From positions 1-64,000 of the IMG/VR virus record IMGVR_UViG_3300046747_000551: DNA of 64,000 bases; one strand, 5' to 3'. The notes beneath the pieces were generated by a model that saw only the letters and a program-made list of their open reading frames with translations, did not search any database and had not been told where the DNA came from. Both the position numbers and the translations under genes were made by a program. Positions 8,021 through 48,820 of this stretch are shown one piece after another. The DNA comes from a virus. Numbering within the stretch: position 1 is the first letter of the stretch; every line of letters starts with the position of its first letter.

Positions 8021-8274
8021 CCGACGTTCTGTTGTGGCATAACTCGTTTCGGCCGAGACGTTTGCGTGCTCCGGCAGTAGCCAGGGAAGTTCCTGCACAG
8101 CTGGGCGTTGACCTCCTCGGCGGGGTCACCAACCGCTAAGTGATTGATGACACGATAGTTAATCACGCGCGCGATGAGCTGGGCCTTGGACGCGCCGCGG
8201 TGCTTAACCTCCTGGGCATCAACGAATACCCAGCCGCCGGGCGGGTGCAGTCCCGGGTTGAATTTCGCGCTCAT
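7984..8274 (-). CDS. Conserved phage protein next to terminase
   Basis: 96 residues with an HPPGGWVFVD motif near the N-terminus, a helical centre (LIARVINYRVINHLAVGDP) and two C-terminal cysteines (CTSCGKK). This HPPGGW layout is a common small-protein type in phage packaging clusters, function unknown. It overlaps terminase by 4 nt upstream and the zinc-finger gene downstream. Confidence 0.7.
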   Translation of the reverse strand: MSAKFNPGLHPPGGWVFVDAQEVKHRGASKAQLIARVINYRVINHLAVGDPAEEVNAQLCRNFPGYCRSTQTSRPKRVMPQQNVGCTSCGKKRKTR

Positions 8275-10205
8275 AATTCGAGGTCGTCCACCGCGGTGTC
8301 GAGGTCTTCGAACCGGTTAATCCGGTCGCAGCCGATGTCCCGCTCGTGCGGGTTCCATTCGTCGGACTGGGTCTCAACCGGCTCCACGTCCGTGTCGCCG
8401 GCCATGCTCGGAGTGAACCCGAACCCCTTGCGACAGGCCTGGAGGAAAAGCGTGAAGGCGTCCGCGTTGTCCGGGGACTTGCCGCCGTGCCGCGACTTGT
8501 ATTCCTTCTTGGACTCGACGTGCGACTTCTTGCCCACCATCCGGAACAGCCGGTCCGTCAGCTCGGGATACAGCTCCCCGGAGTCCAGCTCGAACGCGAC
8601 GAACAGATACTTGAACTCCAACCACCGGCGCAGCGCGAACCACAACTCCGAGTTGACGCGGTCGTAGAGTTCCTTGGCGGTGTCCTCGTCTTCGAGGAAC
8701 ACCCGCACGTCCGAGGCGCCCTCGTAGAAGTTCACGCCGATGACCATGGGCGACCACCGCGCGCGCATGTAGTCATAGACGCCCTGGCCGTTGCCGGTCC
8801 GGTCCACCGCGAGGTGCTCCGGCCGAATCTTCAGCGCGCGGCACAGGCGCATGATTTCGTCGCCGACCGCGAAGGTGTCCCCGTTGGCGATGGGGAAAAT
8901 CTTTTCGGCGAGCGCCAGATACTTCGGCGCCTTGTGCCCGTTGCGGTCCGTGAACCAAATAGTCTCGCCCTCGGGGTGCTTCAGACTCGGCCCCAGCTTC
9001 ACGCCGGCGGCGCGACCGAAAAGGCCCTTGCACAGCCGGCACGCGTCGCCGCCTTCGAGCGCGAGGTCCGCCCCCGCCACCGGCGTCGGCGTGTCATACC
9101 AGATGACGCTGCACTTCAGGTTGAGCGTGAGCCCGGTCGGGATGACCGCGAGCGCCACGCCGATGGGCGGGTAGCAGCCGCGCACCATCGTCCAGTAGCC
9201 GGGCGAGTCCAGCCCGCCGGCGTTGGCCACGATTTGCAGCATGCCCTCGTAGGTCTGCATGCCGGGGAAAACTTCGCGCTTCTCCTTGATGTTCTCCGAC
9301 TGCATCGCGTCCAGGCGCACCACGAACCAGCCGCGCGTGGACATCCACTCGAAGTGCAGCTCGGGGTCGAACGAGCCCCAGCCGAAGGTCGGCTCGGTGC
9401 GGATGCCCACGTCGTTGTTCCGGTCGTCGGGGTTGAACGCGCCATAGACCTTCAGCCCGCCGCGCTTCGACGTGTTCGAAAGCAGGTTGTCGATGTCGTG
9501 CCAGAGTCCCTTGGGCAGGTTGCTGATTTCGTCCACGAACACGAACAGCCGCGAGGTCTCACCAAACTCGGGGTGGGCTTCTTTGCGCCGGAAGCGGGCG
9601 ACACCTTGCAGCCGGCCGGCGGCTTTCTTGCCCTGGGGAATCACCACGCCGCTGATGGACCCGCGCCGCTTGCGCAGGTCGAGGCCGATGAACAGCTTTC
9701 CGATTTCGCCCGGGAGCGGGATGGCGGACTCCCGGTGCAGCGTGACTAGGTGCGAAAAAAGGTTGGCCTCAAGATGGTCCTCGCTCGGGCCGAGGACGCG
9801 CACCGAAGTGTATTCGGGGTCGCGCAACCACTCCAGGAAAAACCGAATCGCCATGCTGAACGATTTCGATTGCTTGCCGGCGCCCATGAGGAGACCGAAG
9901 TCGTGCTCGTCAACGGCGGACCAGACGCGCTTGGTGTGGTTGGGTCGGGGGTCGAACTGGTTGGGAGTCCAGAGAAGTTGTGCGGCTTCCTCGAACGCAC
10001 CGTTGGACAGCGCCCAGTGGAGGAGAATGTTGAGGAGTTCAAACGCTTTGGCCTTGGTGTCCACCGACTGCTTGGCGACCGATGGCGTCGTCTGCGCCGC
10101 CCAGGCGCGCACGAGCCGGGCCGCATCGAAAATCTCGCCGGCATGCACCAGCTTCGCGGTCTCGCGAAGCAAACCTTTGGCCGGGTGTGAATCGGGGAGC
10201 GCCAC
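8271..10205 (-). CDS. Terminase large subunit
   Basis: 644 residues from a GTG start. The ATPase part shows GAGKQSKS as Walker A (near residue 108) and LFVFVDEIS as Walker B (near 217). The C-terminal nuclease has acidic GADLAL (near 388), AVDRTGNGQG (near 470) and SPDNADAF (near 592), the RuvC-like metal ligands of packaging nucleases. It powers DNA translocation into the prohead and cuts the concatemer. The start lies 3 nt after the stop of the small membrane gene at 10209. Confidence 0.85.
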   Translation of the reverse strand: MALPDSHPAKGLLRETAKLVHAGEIFDAARLVRAWAAQTTPSVAKQSVDTKAKAFELLNILLHWALSNGAFEEAAQLLWTPNQFDPRPNHTKRVWSAVDEHDFGLLMGAGKQSKSFSMAIRFFLEWLRDPEYTSVRVLGPSEDHLEANLFSHLVTLHRESAIPLPGEIGKLFIGLDLRKRRGSISGVVIPQGKKAAGRLQGVARFRRKEAHPEFGETSRLFVFVDEISNLPKGLWHDIDNLLSNTSKRGGLKVYGAFNPDDRNNDVGIRTEPTFGWGSFDPELHFEWMSTRGWFVVRLDAMQSENIKEKREVFPGMQTYEGMLQIVANAGGLDSPGYWTMVRGCYPPIGVALAVIPTGLTLNLKCSVIWYDTPTPVAGADLALEGGDACRLCKGLFGRAAGVKLGPSLKHPEGETIWFTDRNGHKAPKYLALAEKIFPIANGDTFAVGDEIMRLCRALKIRPEHLAVDRTGNGQGVYDYMRARWSPMVIGVNFYEGASDVRVFLEDEDTAKELYDRVNSELWFALRRWLEFKYLFVAFELDSGELYPELTDRLFRMVGKKSHVESKKEYKSRHGGKSPDNADAFTLFLQACRKGFGFTPSMAGDTDVEPVETQSDEWNPHERDIGCDRINRFEDLDTAVDDLEL

Positions 10206-10941: not shown

Positions 10942-11634
10942 CTAAGAAGTGGGCGGTTCCGGCGTTTTGTCAAGCCGCATCACGGTGCTGGAGTGCCAAA
11001 AAGTTTGGCCCGACGGCGCCCGGTGCCCGAGCTGGCGCAGCCGCTCCGCAATGACCTGATATGTCATCCCCCGCCGGCGCAGGTCGCGGATGACGACGAG
11101 GATATGCCGCTCGTCCGCGTTCTCAGCCGGGTCCGGGTTGTCCCCGAACCGCCGCGGCCCGCCGCAGGGCCGGCCGGTCTTCGCCGCCGTGCGCCGCCGG
11201 CCGTCTTGCAGCTTCTTAACAATGACGGCCTTCTCCCACTGCGCCAGCGCGCCGAGCAGTTGCCGCAGCAACACGCGCGTCGGGTCGCCGTCCTTGCAGG
11301 TCAGTTCCTGGCCGGTGTCCGCGGCGAATACCTTGACGTTTTGCTCCTGGCACTTCACGAAAAAAAGTTCCTGGGCCATGAGGTCGCGCGCCACGCGGTC
11401 CGCGCGCTCGACGATGATGGCGCCCACGTCGCAGGCCACCGCGAGTTCCAACATCTCAATGAGCATGAGGCGGTCCTCGAACGCCGCGCCGCCGGACTGT
11501 TGCTCCTCGAACGTGCGCGCGATGGTGAACCCGACGTGGTCCGCATACGCGTGCACCGCGTCGCGCTGGCGCTCCAGCCCGTTCATGTCGAGCTGTTCCT
11601 TGGTGCTGACGCGCAGGTATGCGAAAGTTCTCAT
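10942..11634 (-). CDS. Serine recombinase (resolvase/invertase family)
   Basis: 230 residues. YLRVSTKEQ at the N-terminus carries the catalytic Ser10, and ERADRVARD near residue 78 is the conserved arginine segment of the catalytic domain. The C-terminal 60 residues (MTYQVIAERLRQLG) look like a helix-turn-helix binding domain. This is the size of resolvases and invertases rather than large serine integrases. Its natural target may be the 36-bp inverted repeat at 16067-16236. It overlaps the gene upstream by 4 nt. Confidence 0.85.
   Translation of the reverse strand: MRTFAYLRVSTKEQLDMNGLERQRDAVHAYADHVGFTIARTFEEQQSGGAAFEDRLMLIEMLELAVACDVGAIIVERADRVARDLMAQELFFVKCQEQNVKVFAADTGQELTCKDGDPTRVLLRQLLGALAQWEKAVIVKKLQDGRRRTAAKTGRPCGGPRRFGDNPDPAENADERHILVVIRDLRRRGMTYQVIAERLRQLGHRAPSGQTFWHSSTVMRLDKTPEPPTS
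10945..10973 (-). promoter_or_regulatory. Promoter of Fn3-like gene, leaderless type
   Basis: TTGACA (10968-10973), 17-bp spacer, ACTTCT (10945-10950), 8 nt, ATG at 10936. It overlaps the last codons of the recombinase gene. Confidence 0.6.
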
Positions 11635-15171: not shown

Positions 15172-15825
15172 TTACTTACCATGCGTTGGCGGGGTCGGGT
15201 CGGGCGGCGCGACCTCGGTTCGCTCAGCCGGGGCTACAGGGGCGACAGCTTGGCACACGGCATCGGCCAACTCCCGCACAATCTGGTCCGCGGGCTTGGT
15301 CGCCGTGCCGACCGAGTTAAGTGATTGGATGACAGCAGCATGCAACGCAGACACATTCATCTGGTCTGGCTCGTCGTCGCGCTTCGTGCGCTCGCCAACG
15401 GTGTCACCAAGTGCGGCGTAACACATTGCGCTGGCCTTCTCTGCCGCCGCGGCGAGGTCCACAAAATAGCGGGCCGAGAGGATTCTGGCACCGTTCTTGC
15501 CTACGTTCGACACTTGGTCGCAAATCTCCTCGGGCGACATGCCCTCAAAGCGACGGATGACGCTGTCCAGGAGCGTGCGAATGCGGTGGCCTTGCACGAA
15601 TGCAAGCGCCTTGTTCTGAGCACGTTCGAAATCTCCAGGCTTGCCAGAAGTGGACAAAAGGGTGACGCGCTGAATCTTCGCCTGCCAGCCCTCGGCATCG
15701 GCCAGGGCTTGAACGACCGCCGGCTCCAAATTCAGCGCCTCGGCGGTGCGTGCGACGTCGCCGCACAGTGCCACGTAGGTGAGCAGAATCTGCGAGACGT
15801 CTAACTTGTTCTTGTTGAGCAACAT
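15172..15825 (-). CDS. Helix-turn-helix protein, possible small terminase subunit
   Basis: 217 residues. The N-terminal 50 (TYVALCGDVARTAEALNLEP) read as a helix-turn-helix of the kind found in terminase small subunits. The centre is helical and charged and the last 30 residues are Pro/Ala-rich. It is the second gene of the leftward packaging arm, where a DNA-recognition subunit would be expected. The terminase call is inference. Confidence 0.5.
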   Translation of the reverse strand: MLLNKNKLDVSQILLTYVALCGDVARTAEALNLEPAVVQALADAEGWQAKIQRVTLLSTSGKPGDFERAQNKALAFVQGHRIRTLLDSVIRRFEGMSPEEICDQVSNVGKNGARILSARYFVDLAAAAEKASAMCYAALGDTVGERTKRDDEPDQMNVSALHAAVIQSLNSVGTATKPADQIVRELADAVCQAVAPVAPAERTEVAPPDPTPPTHGK

Positions 15826-15828
15826 AGG

Positions 15829-15990
15829 TTAGCTGCCGAGGGGTTTCTTCGCGCGGTCGGTCGCATGCACGCGCCACCACTGCTCCCGTTTTTGTTTTCG
15901 GATGAGTTTCTTCGCCTCGGTGTGCAACTTCTGTGCCGCGTGAGGCGCCGCCTTGAAAAGTTCCCGTTCGATGTCTTTGGGGTCTTGCAT
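15829..15990 (-). CDS. Small basic protein, first gene of leftward arm
   Basis: 53 residues, strongly helical and basic (HTEAKKLIRKQKREQWWRVH). It starts 9 nt after the promoter -10 at 16000-16005 and ends 3 nt before the next start. It may bind nucleic acid; function unknown. Confidence 0.6.
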   Translation of the reverse strand: MQDPKDIERELFKAAPHAAQKLHTEAKKLIRKQKREQWWRVHATDRAKKPLGS

Positions 15991-15999
15991 GTCCGTTTA

Positions 16000-16028
16000 A
16001 GAGGTGCGGCCCAGGCGCGAAATGTCAA
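16000..16028 (-). promoter_or_regulatory. Leftward-arm promoter
   Basis: TTGACA (16023-16028), 17-bp spacer, ACCTCT (16000-16005), then TAAACGGAC and ATG at 15990. It lies outside the inverted repeat. Confidence 0.6.
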
Positions 16029-16066
16029 GGCATGCACTTTGCACGCCTGAAAAGGTAGCCGTGAGG

Positions 16067-16236
16067 CAAGGTGGAGTGGACGGTCATAACCTGTCTGCTG
16101 GGGGGCTATCCTACTCCTATCCTCTTCTAATTCAATAATTTAAGAAGAAGAAGAGGGTATAGTCAACGTGTTTACCTGAAAATGAGAACCCCCGAAAATG
16201 CCCAGCAGACAGGTTATGACCGTCCACTCCACCTTG
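16067..16236. repeat. 36-bp perfect inverted repeat flanking a 98-nt AT-rich core
   Basis: The left arm 16067-16102 (CAAGGTGGAGTGGACGGTCA...) is the exact reverse complement of the right arm 16201-16236. The core 16103-16200 is the most AT-rich stretch in the window and contains a smaller inverted pair (CCTCTTCT/AGAAGAGG). The right arm ends inside the -35 of the rightward promoter. The layout fits an invertible promoter segment, a recombinase or replication-initiator site, or a replication origin. Confidence 0.85.
16138..16166 (-). promoter_or_regulatory. Strong promoter inside the inverted-repeat core
   Basis: TTGACT (16161-16166), 17-bp spacer, TTAAAT (16138-16143), the closest match to a classic sigma-70 promoter in the window. 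As it lies here it reads leftward through the left arm of the repeat. Inversion of the core would turn it toward the rightward arm. Confidence 0.6.
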
Positions 16237-16262
16237 ACAAACCCGGAAAAGGCCACACTGGG
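16234..16262 (+). promoter_or_regulatory. Rightward-arm promoter
   Basis: TTGACA (16234-16239), 17-bp spacer, ACTGGG (16257-16262), then 9 nt and ATG at 16272. The first three bases of the -35 are the end of the right repeat arm. Confidence 0.65.
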
Positions 16263-16271
16263 AAGGGTGAC

Positions 16272-17030
16272 ATGATATCGAGCCGCACAGTTCTGCACGA
16301 GGCAATACGTCGCCTGCACCAAGTCTGGAAGCGCTGGGACCTTTTCAACCGGGATGGAGTGCCCATGGCCGAGGCCGAGGCTGCCCGGCTCCGGGATATG
16401 AAGGCCGACCTGCTGGCGCGCATTGGTCTGTCGCGCATTCGCAACAAGGCCGCGTGGTATGAACGCGTCGAGAGTGCTTGTTCGGCACCACCGGTCAAGG
16501 TCGCCTCGTCCGTGCCGGCGTGCGTCCGCGACTTCGAGCAGCCGCACGACTGCCCGACGTGGCGCGGCCTGGACAGTGCGGAACCCGAGCGCAAGGTGGT
16601 GGGGCTGGTCTGGTGCCGACGCGTGGGGCGCTGGGCTATTCGCATCCAGTGCCGGCGCATCCAGGGCCAGCGTGCGGAGTATCTCAACACCGAGACGCAC
16701 GGCATGTCCTGGGGCCACCTCGCCGTGGCCATCGACCATCTCAAGTGCGTCCTCATTTTTCGCGGGCACCTCAGCTTGCCGGTGTTCGGCACCCGCACTT
16801 CTGCATGGAATGCCTGGAGTTTTGCCAAGGAGAAAATGGACTGTGGCGACGTGGAACTAGACCTGGACAACCCGCTGCATGCACACCTCGCGCAATGGCT
16901 CTCGCGCCAGGAGAAGCTGACCGAGGACCGCATCAAGTATCCGGATGCCACGCTGCGCGACTACCCCAAAGAGACCGCGGCCGAGGCGCGCTATATCAAT
17001 GACGCGTTTGGGAGCAACGTGGCCTCTTGA
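16272..17030 (+). CDS. Hypothetical protein, first gene of rightward arm
   Basis: 252 residues from the ATG 9 nt after the promoter. The N-terminus is helical and charged (VLHEAIRRLHQVWKRWDLF), and the centre has strands and cysteines (VGLVWCRRVGRWAIRIQCRRI). No family recognised. As the first gene of the arm, next to the inverted repeat, a regulatory or replication-initiation role is possible. Its stop codon forms part of the next promoter -35. Confidence 0.65.
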   Translation: MISSRTVLHEAIRRLHQVWKRWDLFNRDGVPMAEAEAARLRDMKADLLARIGLSRIRNKAAWYERVESACSAPPVKVASSVPACVRDFEQPHDCPTWRGLDSAEPERKVVGLVWCRRVGRWAIRIQCRRIQGQRAEYLNTETHGMSWGHLAVAIDHLKCVLIFRGHLSLPVFGTRTSAWNAWSFAKEKMDCGDVELDLDNPLHAHLAQWLSRQEKLTEDRIKYPDATLRDYPKETAAEARYINDAFGSNVAS

Positions 17031-17055
17031 CATTTTTCGAAAAGTCCACACTGGG
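17027..17055 (+). promoter_or_regulatory. Promoter, ACTGGG class
   Basis: TTGACA (17027-17032), 17-bp spacer, ACTGGG (17050-17055), ATAGGTAGAG, ATG at 17066. The block CCACACTGGGATAGGTAGA recurs at 27129. Confidence 0.65.
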
Positions 17056-17065
17056 ATAGGTAGAG

Positions 17066-17263
17066 ATGAACAAGAAGCAATGGCAATCACTGGTCGCGGC
17101 GTTCCGAGACGCGCGCACCGCGGCCCTGGTCGCAGACGACTACGTAATTGGCGGCACGCACCAAGTCTTGGTGGACACTATAGTCCGTCGCGTGGCCGAG
17201 AGGTGCGAAGACCCTGAGCTGTTTATTCTCGTGTGCGGCGCGACGGTTCTCAAACCCAAATGA
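17066..17263 (+). CDS. Small helical protein
   Basis: 65 residues (NKKQWQSLVAAFRDARTAAL), predicted all-helical, ending LVCGATVLKPK. It starts 10 nt after a promoter and overlaps the next gene by 4 nt. Function unknown. Confidence 0.65.
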   Translation: MNKKQWQSLVAAFRDARTAALVADDYVIGGTHQVLVDTIVRRVAERCEDPELFILVCGATVLKPK

Positions 17264-17649
17264 AAACGAAACCCTTCAACATCGACGAAGCCAAACGAAC
17301 CCTGCGCGCGGTCACGCTGGCCGGAGAACCGGTGCGCCTTTTCGCGTTCGACCTCAAGGGCGCGTATCCAATCCTTGGGGCCATTAGCGTGGACGGCGGC
17401 AAGAACGAATACACGGCACGCTGGACGCTGGCCGGGCGCTCCACACTGGGCGGCAGCAGCGCCGAGGACTGCTCGTCTGACCTGCGGTCGCCGGTCGAGA
17501 CGGTCACGCGCTATATCAATATCTACCGGCGCGCCGACTCTGTTGAGCTGCGGACCGGCCCCGGCGTTTTCGTCACGCACAAGGACGCCGAAGACTGCGC
17601 GGGCCATTCCCAGTTCGCCGTCGTGGAAATCAAAATCGAGTTGCCATGA
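17260..17649 (+). CDS. Hypothetical protein, tandem copy 1
   Basis: 129 residues starting MKTKPFNIDEAKRTLRAV. It is clearly homologous to the next product: both share this N-terminus, PVETVTRY in the middle, GVFVT and a VEI...ELP ending. An internal strand-rich region sits between. Function unknown; the ATG at 17260 overlaps the previous stop. Confidence 0.7.
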   Translation: MKTKPFNIDEAKRTLRAVTLAGEPVRLFAFDLKGAYPILGAISVDGGKNEYTARWTLAGRSTLGGSSAEDCSSDLRSPVETVTRYINIYRRADSVELRTGPGVFVTHKDAEDCAGHSQFAVVEIKIELP

Positions 17650-18014
17650 AAACGAAGCCCTTCAACATTGACGAAGCCAAACGAACCCTGCGTGCGGTCA
17701 CCCGCAGCGGACAAGCGGTGCGCCTCTTCGTGTTCGACCTTGGCAAGAGCAACGACATCGCGGGCGCCAGGATGACCGAACATGGGGAAACGCTCACCGG
17801 CTGGTATTCCAACGGCCGTTTCTTCACGGACCGCGAGCACGGCAACGACCTGCTCACGCCCGTGGAAACCGTCACGCGCTACCTCAACCTTTACCGGAAG
17901 GGCACGGGTGAAGTGTATCCGGGCGCGGGGGTTTTCGTCACGCGCGAAGACGCCGAAGAGGGCGCGGGGCGTTCCTGCTTCGCCACCGTGGAAATCCAAT
18001 TCGAATTGCCGTAA
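17646..18014 (+). CDS. Hypothetical protein, tandem copy 2
   Basis: 122 residues, a diverged tandem duplicate of the preceding gene with an identical first 18 residues. It overlaps that gene by 4 nt. The first 50 nt of both genes are nearly identical, which points to a recent duplication or continuing conversion. Confidence 0.7.
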   Translation: MKTKPFNIDEAKRTLRAVTRSGQAVRLFVFDLGKSNDIAGARMTEHGETLTGWYSNGRFFTDREHGNDLLTPVETVTRYLNLYRKGTGEVYPGAGVFVTREDAEEGAGRSCFATVEIQFELP

Positions 18015-26905: not shown

Positions 26906-27141
26906 AACTCAACAAACTCGAAAAAGAACTAGACGCCCGGTTCGCGGACATCGGCTTCCCGAGCCACGACGACCCAACCATCCCGCCCGCCATGCGGATA
27001 CAGCTGGCGCACTGCATCGCGCGCTTTTACAGCGGCGAGGTGCTCGTCGTGGACCGCCGCGGGAACGCGCTGCGCATCTACGCTCGCGCGAATCCTAATC
27101 CCGGGGGGTTGACATTTCCGAAAAAGTCCACACTGGGATAG
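26902..27141 (+). CDS. Small hypothetical protein
   Basis: 79 residues from the ATG at 26902 (4-nt overlap). Helical N-terminus (LNKLEKELDARFADIG) and a strand pair (VLVVDRRGNALRIYARAN). The last dozen codons coincide with the next promoter, so the true C-terminus is tuned by that constraint. Confidence 0.6.
   Translation: MKLNKLEKELDARFADIGFPSHDDPTIPPAMRIQLAHCIARFYSGEVLVVDRRGNALRIYARANPNPGGLTFPKKSTLG
27109..27137 (+). promoter_or_regulatory. Promoter, ACTGGG class
   Basis: TTGACA (27109-27114), 17-bp spacer, ACTGGG (27132-27137), ATAGGTAGA, ATG at 27147. Nearly identical to 17027-17055. Confidence 0.65.
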
Positions 27142-27146
27142 GTAGA

Positions 27147-30781: not shown

Positions 30782-30967
30782 ATGCCAGTAAAAACCAAAA
30801 AGACCAAGTGCGGCTACAGCAACAGCACGCCCGGCGGAAGCAAAGGGAAGTGCATGACCAAGAAAAACGCTGCGGCCCAGAAGCGACTGCTGAATGCCGT
30901 GGACCACGGCTATGTGCCGACCGGCAACAAGCACGAGGCCATGAAAAAGCGCGTCATGGGGGAGTGA
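30782..30967 (+). CDS. Small basic protein
   Basis: 61 residues, Lys-rich (VKTKKTKCGYSNSTPGGSKG), with a C-terminal helix KHEAMKKRVMGE. Unknown. Confidence 0.55.
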   Translation: MPVKTKKTKCGYSNSTPGGSKGKCMTKKNAAAQKRLLNAVDHGYVPTGNKHEAMKKRVMGE

Positions 30968-30971
30968 CCCC

Positions 30972-31000
30972 TTGACAATTCCAGAAAACCCTACACTGGG
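30972..31000 (+). promoter_or_regulatory. Replication-arm promoter, ACTGGG class
   Basis: TTGACA (30972-30977), 17-bp spacer, ACTGGG (30995-31000), ATAGATGTA, ATG at 31010. Confidence 0.65.
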
Positions 31001-31009
31001 ATAGATGTA

Positions 31010-34326: not shown

Positions 34327-34331
34327 GGGGG

Positions 34332-34360
34332 TTGACATTTTCGGGAAACTCCACACTGGG
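34332..34360 (+). promoter_or_regulatory. DNA polymerase promoter, ACTGGG class
   Basis: TTGACA (34332-34337), 17-bp spacer, ACTGGG (34355-34360), ATAAGTG, ATG at 34368. Confidence 0.65.
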
Positions 34361-34367
34361 ATAAGTG

Positions 34368-36331: not shown

Positions 36332-38553
36332 AACTTTTCTGCCTGCGCAACCTCAGCTCGCACGAGGTCACCACCTGTGTCCCGTGGGAATTCGGTCCGG
36401 AAAATCTGGGAGCGGTTCCCCCGGAGGCCTTCTCGGATAAGACGGTCCGAGACACCTGGGCCAATCGCCCCGGCACGGTGCATCAAATGTATTCGTGCTA
36501 CCAGGGGTCCAACCCGAACCTGCGCATCAGCAAAGAGAATCCGCCACACGACGCACGCGCCGCGGCCATCGACGTGGACGTGAAGCTGACGCGGCCCGAG
36601 CTGGACGGCGCGCTGGAGCGAATGGGCGACCGCAAGCCGAACTATATCGAGACCACTTTTTCCGGCCACTTCCGGCTCGTCTGGCTGTTCGCGGTGCCCA
36701 TCGGTTTTCTCGGCGACATGACTTTCGCAAAGTTCGTCCTTGAGCATCTGCATGAGCTGCTGCCGTATCGCCAGTGTCCGGGAATTGATGAGGGCGCCGT
36801 CTCGCGTGGCACGCAATACTACACTAACGGTTGTCGCTGGGAAAAAATTCACGACACCCCCATTCCGGCGGACCTGCTCATTGGCTGGCAAATGGCCATC
36901 TCCAAAAAATTCAACTGGGCGGATACCAAGGACGCGGTGAAAATCCCGCTCGACGTGGTCGAGGCGAAGCTGCGCGAAATGTTTCCTCGGTTCGTGACTG
37001 AGTGGAAATCGGAGTTCAAGAAGGATGCGCAGGGGCCGACCTTCTGGGAACCGGAATCGACGAGCCCGAATTCGGCAATCGTGAACGACCACGGTATCCG
37101 GTCCTTTGCGGACCACGCCTCACACAAGCCGTTTATGACCTGGGCCGACTTTTTCGGCGCGCAGTTCGTGGCCGAGTATCAGCTGAAGCTGCTGGGCAAC
37201 GCGGTCGAGGGCATCTACTACGACGGCCGGCAGTTCATCCGAAAACAGTCTGAGGGCAAGTGGCTGTTCGGCGGCGCGGACGACCTGTCGCGTCACCTGC
37301 GCTGCGAGCGCGGGCTCTCCGACCGCCGGCCCAAGGGCCGCAACGCTTCGCCCGTGGACGAGGCCATCTCCTTCATCCAAAACAAAGGCCACATCACGTC
37401 GGCCGGGAGTTTCTCCTTCTACCCCAAAGGCATCATGGAACGTTACGGCAAAACATTTCTCAACATCCACAACCGCGACGTGCTGACCCCGGCACCGGGC
37501 ACCCAGAAGTGGGGCGACAAGTTCCCCTTCATCGCCAAGTTTTACGACGGCTGGCTGACTTCCGAAGCCGCGCTCACGGCGTATCTGTCGCACCTGTCGT
37601 ATGCGTTTCGCTGCGCGTTCAATCGCGCCCCGCAGCCCGGGCAAGTGTCCGTCTTCGTCGGTCCGCCGAGCTGCGGAAAAACGCTCAACACGCGCTACAT
37701 CATCGGCGCGCTGTTCAATGGCTACGCGGAGTGCCAGGACTGGATGATGGGCCGCGACCAGTTCAACAGCGAGTTGTTCGAGGTCTTCAATTGGGCCATC
37801 GACGACAACACAATGGGGCTTGACGCGCGCTCGCATCGTATCTACACTGAGATGCTGAAAAGATGCTGTGCCAATCAAGCGTTCCGTTCCAACGAGAAGT
37901 TCCGCGCGGCCGGGCTGCTCGACTGGGCCGGCCGAATCTGGGTGTCGCTCAACAACGACGCGGCCAGCCTGCGGCACTTGCCGGAGCTGGGCATGTCGAA
38001 CATGGACAAGCTGAACCTTTACTGCTGCACGGTCCTCCGGACGGACGGGTTCGTTTTTCCTGCGCGCGAGGAAATCGCCCGCACGCTGGTCCAGGAACTG
38101 CCCTACTTCGGGAAGTTCCTGTTGGACTACGAAATCCCGGCGCACCGCATGGGCACGGAAAAGCGCTTCGGCCCCATTCATTACCACGACACGTCTTTGG
38201 TCATCGAGGCCAACCAATCGTCGCTGAGCGCCAGCATCGGCGAGCAGGTGGACGAGTGGATGCGCCAGTATTTTGTCGAGAAGCACCCTGAGCACGACTG
38301 CTGGGAAGGCACCGCCTACCAGCTCTACCAATCGATGGCCATCGACTGCCAGATGCGCGAGGCCATGGGCCGCACGACGGCGGACACGCTGAGCAAGACG
38401 CTCCCTGAGCTGGCGCAAAAAGGTTTCGACATCGAAATCCTGGGCGGCGAGTTCCGCCGCACGTTCCGAATTTGCCGGGGCAACCGTTACCCGAAGGGAC
38501 CGGTCGCCAAGACAATCAAGCAGACCCCCAACAACCCCTACGAAAAACAATGA
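36328..38553 (+). CDS. Primase-helicase (AEP-like primase plus SF3/D5-like helicase)
   Basis: 741 residues from the ATG at 36328, overlapping the polymerase stop. Residues 80-200 have AIDVDVKL (DxD), FSGHFRLVWLF and GAVSRGTQYYTNG, typical of archaeo-eukaryotic-type primase-polymerase domains. Residues 440-600 have GPPSCGKT (Walker A, near 450), FNWAIDDN (Walker B) and RIWVSLNND (sensor 1) of superfamily 3 helicases. It would prime and unwind at the phage fork beside its polymerase. Confidence 0.8.
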   Translation: MKLFCLRNLSSHEVTTCVPWEFGPENLGAVPPEAFSDKTVRDTWANRPGTVHQMYSCYQGSNPNLRISKENPPHDARAAAIDVDVKLTRPELDGALERMGDRKPNYIETTFSGHFRLVWLFAVPIGFLGDMTFAKFVLEHLHELLPYRQCPGIDEGAVSRGTQYYTNGCRWEKIHDTPIPADLLIGWQMAISKKFNWADTKDAVKIPLDVVEAKLREMFPRFVTEWKSEFKKDAQGPTFWEPESTSPNSAIVNDHGIRSFADHASHKPFMTWADFFGAQFVAEYQLKLLGNAVEGIYYDGRQFIRKQSEGKWLFGGADDLSRHLRCERGLSDRRPKGRNASPVDEAISFIQNKGHITSAGSFSFYPKGIMERYGKTFLNIHNRDVLTPAPGTQKWGDKFPFIAKFYDGWLTSEAALTAYLSHLSYAFRCAFNRAPQPGQVSVFVGPPSCGKTLNTRYIIGALFNGYAECQDWMMGRDQFNSELFEVFNWAIDDNTMGLDARSHRIYTEMLKRCCANQAFRSNEKFRAAGLLDWAGRIWVSLNNDAASLRHLPELGMSNMDKLNLYCCTVLRTDGFVFPAREEIARTLVQELPYFGKFLLDYEIPAHRMGTEKRFGPIHYHDTSLVIEANQSSLSASIGEQVDEWMRQYFVEKHPEHDCWEGTAYQLYQSMAIDCQMREAMGRTTADTLSKTLPELAQKGFDIEILGGEFRRTFRICRGNRYPKGPVAKTIKQTPNNPYEKQ

Positions 38554-39329
38554 AGAACCTAGTCGTGGGCTACGCGCACCATCAAGACACCAAACGCGGC
38601 GAGGAATACCTCTCCCGCTTCGGTAACTGGATGCCCTTGCACCCCCACTATTTCAATATGAGCGACAACCAAAGCTACTACGCCCCCGGGACGGACCTGA
38701 AGTTCACCCTCCTCTCTGCCGAAGAAGAGACACGCCTGTTCACCGTCGCCCGCGGCGGTCGATATACGGCGACCGAGGTGAACGCCGCGCGCGACTACAT
38801 CATCACCAACCATCTGCTTTTCGCGGCGACTTACGCGAGGCGAATCGTGAAGGGCAAGCTGCCCGACAACGAGGTCGTCAGCGCCGCGAATTTCGGCCTG
38901 ATGAAGGCGTTCGAGGCGTTTGACCACAAGCGCGGGAAACGTTTCTCGTGCTACGCGAAGCCCTACATCCGGTCCGAAATCGCCACGCTCTGGCGCTCCA
39001 AGGACATCGTGGACTACCACGGCAATTTTCCGGACGTGACCGAGGACAACGTCGCGATGCTCGACCCCGACTGCGGCGTCGTCATGCCGGACAACGAGGG
39101 CGACAGCCGCGAGCTGGTGTTGAAGTGCCTGGAGGAATCCAAGTCCGTGCTCAACGCCAAGGAAGCGAAAATCCTGCGCATGCACTACGAGCAGGGACTG
39201 AACATGCGGGAAATCGCGGACACGTTCGACATCACGCGCGAGCGCATTCGACAAATCCACGACGTGGCCATCGCCAAGCTGGCCCGGGCCTTCAAGCGTG
39301 CCGGCGTGAACGCACAGGGGGAAGTATGA
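38550..39329 (+). CDS. Phage RNA polymerase sigma factor, sigma-70 family
   Basis: 259 residues. Region 2 is clear (NHLLFAATYARRIVKGKL, LMKAFEAFDHKRGKRFSCYA, KPYIRSEI, residues 92-150), as is region 4 with its helix-turn-helix (NAKEAKILRMHYEQGL, MREIADTFDITRERIRQIHD, residues 205-245). Region 1.1 is absent. It should redirect host RNA polymerase to phage promoters; the ACTKNN class is the natural candidate. An internal ATG (38658) could give a shorter form. Overlaps both neighbours by 4 nt. Confidence 0.9.
   Translation: MKNLVVGYAHHQDTKRGEEYLSRFGNWMPLHPHYFNMSDNQSYYAPGTDLKFTLLSAEEETRLFTVARGGRYTATEVNAARDYIITNHLLFAATYARRIVKGKLPDNEVVSAANFGLMKAFEAFDHKRGKRFSCYAKPYIRSEIATLWRSKDIVDYHGNFPDVTEDNVAMLDPDCGVVMPDNEGDSRELVLKCLEESKSVLNAKEAKILRMHYEQGLNMREIADTFDITRERIRQIHDVAIAKLARAFKRAGVNAQGEV

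Positions 39330-45921: not shown

Positions 45922-48820
<2,899 letters not shown>

Follow-up and report, generated by a model that had tools for sequence, protein, structure and literature searches.

Several described systems resemble in part the locus considered here, a long inverted repeat situated where the two gene arms of a phage genome diverge. HSV-1 OriS consists of inverted boxes on either side of an AT-rich spacer and has a hairpin form that is involved in initiation (PMC12543377). Inverted-repeat arms are kept identical by template switching in replication (PMC8794818), and a further study describes template switching that homogenises such arms (PMC8604942). Nematomorph mitochondrial palindromes are long perfect inverted repeats of up to 284 bp, the function of which is unclear (PMC6649704). 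Invertons with serine recombinases combine perfect arms, a short AT-rich promoter-like segment and a serine recombinase gene in the same genome, as does the locus described below. Herpes simplex OriS, which is also located between divergent genes, may be regarded as the nearest functional analogue of the phage repeat, as both consist of inverted elements around an AT-rich spacer. However, the OriS boxes bind one initiator protein, whereas the sequence of the phage arms is not conserved and no initiator was identified. Template-switched quasipalindromes would share with the phage repeat arms that are kept identical by copying during replication, but they are scattered or located in genes, while the phage repeat occupies one fixed place family-wide. 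The nematomorph palindromes are likewise long and perfect, but are numerous and lie inside protein-coding genes, while the phage has a single repeat between divergent operons. Literature searches for a feature of this kind in phages returned no match.

The window analyzed here is a stretch of 64,000 nucleotides, positions 1 to 64,000 of the IMG/VR virus record IMGVR_UViG_3300046747_000551. As the ends of this record overlap by 127 bases, the genome closes to a circle of 73,051 bp. Two further records belong to this virus; the stretches fetched from them match the window at 100% identity and have its orientation. The features of the window that are relevant to the repeat are as follows:

8271..10205, minus strand: putative large terminase subunit (TerL), assigned by position and sequence character; used to gather relatives
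10942..11634, minus strand: serine recombinase (PF00239, E-value: 9.9e-22)
15172..15825, minus strand: putative small terminase subunit (TerS), assigned by position and sequence character
15829..15990, minus strand: first leftward gene, predicted product of 53 aa
16018..16028, minus strand: TTGACATTTCG, with which an outward-facing promoter-like element begins to the left of the repeat, resembling that at 16229..16268 (putative promoter)
16067..16102, no strand: left arm of the inverted repeat, 36 bp
16103..16200, no strand: AT-rich core, 98 nt, 38.8% GC; the stretch TTCTCATTTTCAGGTAAACAYGTTGACTA (minus strand) recurs in lineage L128
16201..16236, no strand: right arm, the exact reverse complement of the left arm
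16229..16268, plus strand: one of five copies of a promoter-like element (TTGACA..CACACTGGGA), adjoining the right arm on its outer side (putative promoter)
16272..17030, plus strand: first rightward gene, fast-evolving
38472-39329: phage sigma factor

The first-pass annotation correctly described two perfect 36-bp inverted arms (100% complementary) around a 98-nt AT-rich core in a divergent control region. The chance expectation for such a repeat in the genome is about 4e-14, and it is the sole strong inverted repeat of the window genome (score 36; runner-up 15). It sits at the only divergent gene boundary of the genome, between a leftward gene starting at 15990 and a rightward gene starting at about 16272. 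The GC content of the core compares with 62.8% for the whole window, and among all 98-bp stretches of the window, the one lowest in GC (37.8%) begins inside the core, at 16107, and lies mostly within it. Because the arms are perfectly complementary, predicted folding of the region is strong (z about -10, as RNA or as DNA); no known structured RNA was matched in Rfam at E ≤ 1 over positions 15700-16600. The sequence TTGACT-N17-TTAAAT is present in the core on the minus strand, but its description as the best sigma-70-like promoter of the window does not hold: with a simple weight matrix it ranks about ninth in the window, and it scores marginally above AT-matched shuffles (p about 0.08). An assembly artefact is unlikely because three records carry the identical sequence and the feature recurs across many lineages.

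The final TTG of the right arm forms the beginning of the right-hand TTGACA. This promoter-like repeat (TTGACA..CACACTGGGATAGG) occurs in five copies (16229-16268, 17022-17061, 27104-27143, 30967-31006 and 34327-34366), each just upstream of a start codon, and the phage sigma factor may serve the repeated TTGACA..CACACTGGG elements. In both the window and L128, part of the promoter-like -35 on the right-hand side is also present in the left arm. On the left side, small basic proteins similar to the predicted 53-aa product appear to follow the repeat in relatives. The gene at 15172..15825 probably encodes the small terminase subunit, judging by its position and sequence character; the one at 8271..10205 probably encodes the large subunit, judging by the same features and a single weak hit against an annotated terminase. 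PHROGs and Pfam gave no match for either subunit. The gene at 16272-17030 is the first right-hand gene in eight near lineages. It has no Pfam match and no Foldseek match at E ≤ 0.001, two AlphaFold models of its product are both of low confidence, and no support was found for an AP2-like resemblance.

Three further observations concern other repeated sequences in these genomes. A short TGCA-3-TGCA palindrome (16033-16043 in the window, where it reads TGCACTTTGCA) lies near the repeat, also in L045, L052, L051 and L135; in several near relatives it is within about 160 bp of the repeat on the TerL side, and it is a candidate operator. Positions 17260-17354 and 17646-17740, at the starts of neighbouring small genes, are 87% identical and probably reflect a recent duplication. 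A long array with a 9-nt period (46844-47900) within the minus-strand ORF 45922-48594 suggests a collagen-like protein.

Relatives were gathered by scans with the serine recombinase, a TerL alignment and a TerS alignment. A search of isolated phages and plasmids gave one weak terminase match only, and a genome scan gave one MAG contig (L109), the fetched stretch of which lacks a strong repeat. The longest records of the family measure roughly 68-75 kb. According to strand maps, the genes of each genome diverge at one point, the repeat, and converge at one other. Eighteen lineages have an inverted repeat at the divergence point; its arms are 17-70 bp long and its spacer is 49-113 nt. Most of these repeats are perfect or nearly so: those of the window (36 bp), L014/L062 (35 bp), L021/L045 (43 bp) and L091 (24 bp) are perfect, the 69-bp repeat of L078 has one mismatch, the 68-bp repeat of L107 has about nine, and most others have a few. 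Across all lineages, 38 of 672 arm positions are mismatched (16 transitions and 22 transversions), with no excess of wobble-type changes. The core is AT-rich and is often the lowest-GC stretch of the genome.

When 15 near-complete genomes were scanned, ten proved to have a strong inverted repeat (score ≥ 17), which in every case was confined to the divergence. The best score away from the divergence in these ten was 12-16, and 20 block shuffles of one genome gave 11-15. Two of the remaining genomes (G002 and G022) have only a degenerate repeat, and in three (G004, G005 and G021) none was seen, a result that for G004 and G021 is subject to a divergence point that was not pinned down. The repeat is therefore not strictly required. 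Besides its main repeat, G013 has further overlapping or nearby repeats at the divergence site, and at L103:767-1222 (G013:14907-15362) the outer part of the arm recurs in direct repeats and a second inverted repeat lies close by.

In most lineages, the family keeps the pairing of the arms and not their sequence. Arms of most lineages are unrelated, and BLAST gives only matches of 9-16 nt, near chance; those of L048 and L135 look alignable, at about two thirds identity by eye. Over 4 kb on one side of the locus, L126 and L128 are 99.1% identical, and on the other side they are 92% identical, but they have different alleles of the segment that contains the repeat and the first right-hand gene. 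Their arms have the outer 14 bp in common (GAAGTCAACCAACT), and further inward both arms are different. This points to both arms having been altered together, as would be expected of template switching, with paired replacement of this kind seen in this one lineage pair only. The locus has the features of a repeat homogenised by template switching, namely arms that are identical within a genome and diverged between genomes, with a block change in one pair. It has those of a palindromic viral origin in part: inverted arms and an AT-rich spacer lie between divergent genes, but conserved initiator binding boxes are missing, as there is no arm homology between most lineages. Genes for possible homing endonucleases adjoin the repeat in two lineages, an Endonuclease VII-like gene at L062:3536-3991 (E-value: 3.9e-16) and a weak GIY-YIG match at L085:3021-3464; such enzymes might drive exchange of the repeat and first gene as a cassette.

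The first-pass annotation had proposed an invertible promoter flipped by the phage's own serine recombinase. Perfect arms do flank an AT-rich, promoter-like core, and the recombinase that it reported at 10942-11634 is indeed encoded there; located near the large terminase gene, it is a family core gene found in 18 of 18 records, in none of which a tyrosine integrase was seen. Nevertheless, we consider such a switch very improbable. The recombinases of the window lineage and the L014/L062 lineage are 97-99% identical, but the arms that they accompany are unrelated. A serine-recombinase crossover site should have an internal dyad, and none is present in the arms above the level of shuffles. All ten same-lineage contig comparisons across the repeat are collinear and the second orientation was not observed, although identical viruses make up some of the pairs, which are therefore not independent, and a minority orientation would be hidden because assemblies represent the majority one. 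Moreover, the stretch TTCTCATTTTCAGGTAAACAYGTTGACTA has the same orientation in the cores of the window and L128, the arms of which are unlike each other. A serine-recombinase crossover site in the arms was rejected in view of the unrelated arms, the lack of a dyad and the collinear contigs, and the enzyme probably does not act on these arms. It is in these respects that the locus differs from the invertons: no inversion was observed, the arms have no dyad and near-identical recombinases occur with arms that are not shared. No shared dyad was seen upstream of the recombinase gene. A mobile element with terminal repeats was also rejected, as no target duplication was apparent by eye and unrelated arms occur at the same place.

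Two other explanations are serious rivals of an initiation region. The repeat may be a shared regulatory leader or operator, in which the core fires in both directions and the identical arms serve coordinated control and not DNA structure, either as the same first bases on both divergent transcripts or as the same element upstream of both outer promoters. The position of the repeat between divergent operons, with promoter-like elements just outside it, would fit this arrangement, as would the Shine-Dalgarno-like AAGGAGGTCG in which both L078 arms end and the sigma-70-like sites on both strands of several cores. The core mostly has stronger promoter-like sites than the inward-pointing ones of the flanks, and one RNA across both arms is therefore unlikely; an RNA hairpin spanning both arms was rejected on this ground and for lack of an Rfam match. 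We nonetheless judge a shared leader to be unlikely, since the arms are entirely different from one lineage to the next while near relatives retain a similar outer promoter-like element, most core promoter scores are on a par with those of AT-rich shuffles and arms of up to 70 bp are longer than the usual operator.

The repeat could instead be a functionless by-product of replication, which template switching repeatedly makes and repairs at an AT-rich site where replication pauses or starts, and which decays between events. This would account for perfect, imperfect, degenerate and absent repeats within one family and for arms that change together, and the mechanism is documented (PMC8794818, PMC8604942). 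However, recurrence at exactly one point in many lineages requires at least a special site. In the L014/L062 lineage, the arms are also identical although the surrounding contigs are 97-98.5% identical, a divergence that is itself small. We regard a by-product as quite unlikely.

The reading that we favour, tentatively and at somewhat less than even likelihood, is a single bidirectional initiation region (a replication origin and/or a divergent promoter) of a family of phages with circularly closing genomes, in which arm pairing is maintained and template switching homogenises the arms. The architecture is family-wide, and we infer from it that a replication origin, an alternative already named in the first-pass annotation, is the leading candidate for its function. 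The two gene arms would diverge from the AT-rich core bracketed by the long inverted repeat, and the arms would matter as DNA structure. As the core melts, they could fold back as a hairpin or cruciform and thereby mark or open the start of replication, with divergent transcription alongside. Template switching there would copy one arm onto the other, such that the arms stay identical while their sequence drifts or is replaced, and the repeat and the adjacent fast-evolving first gene could be exchanged between phages as one cassette. The length of the core, which is long for a hairpin loop, counts against an initiation region, as do the five of 15 genomes in which a strong repeat is lacking and the mismatches of imperfect arms, in which wobble-type changes are not in excess. 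In GC3 skew, a measure that gene order makes a weak test, no consistent switch was seen at the antipode; the third-position AT shift seen in the skew analysis may reflect expression. A stricter form, in which the site is kept by self-complementarity alone, with the foldback retained, both arms rewritten together by template switching and the sequence replaceable, appears somewhat unlikely.

The combination of an inverted repeat and a recombinase gene in one genome is insufficient for calling an invertible switch. These phages form a family without a close relative in the phage and plasmid collections searched. If the initiation reading is true, this family keeps its initiation site by shape and not by letters, and it would lend itself to clean tests of how palindromes persist and of whether an origin can function without conserved sequence.
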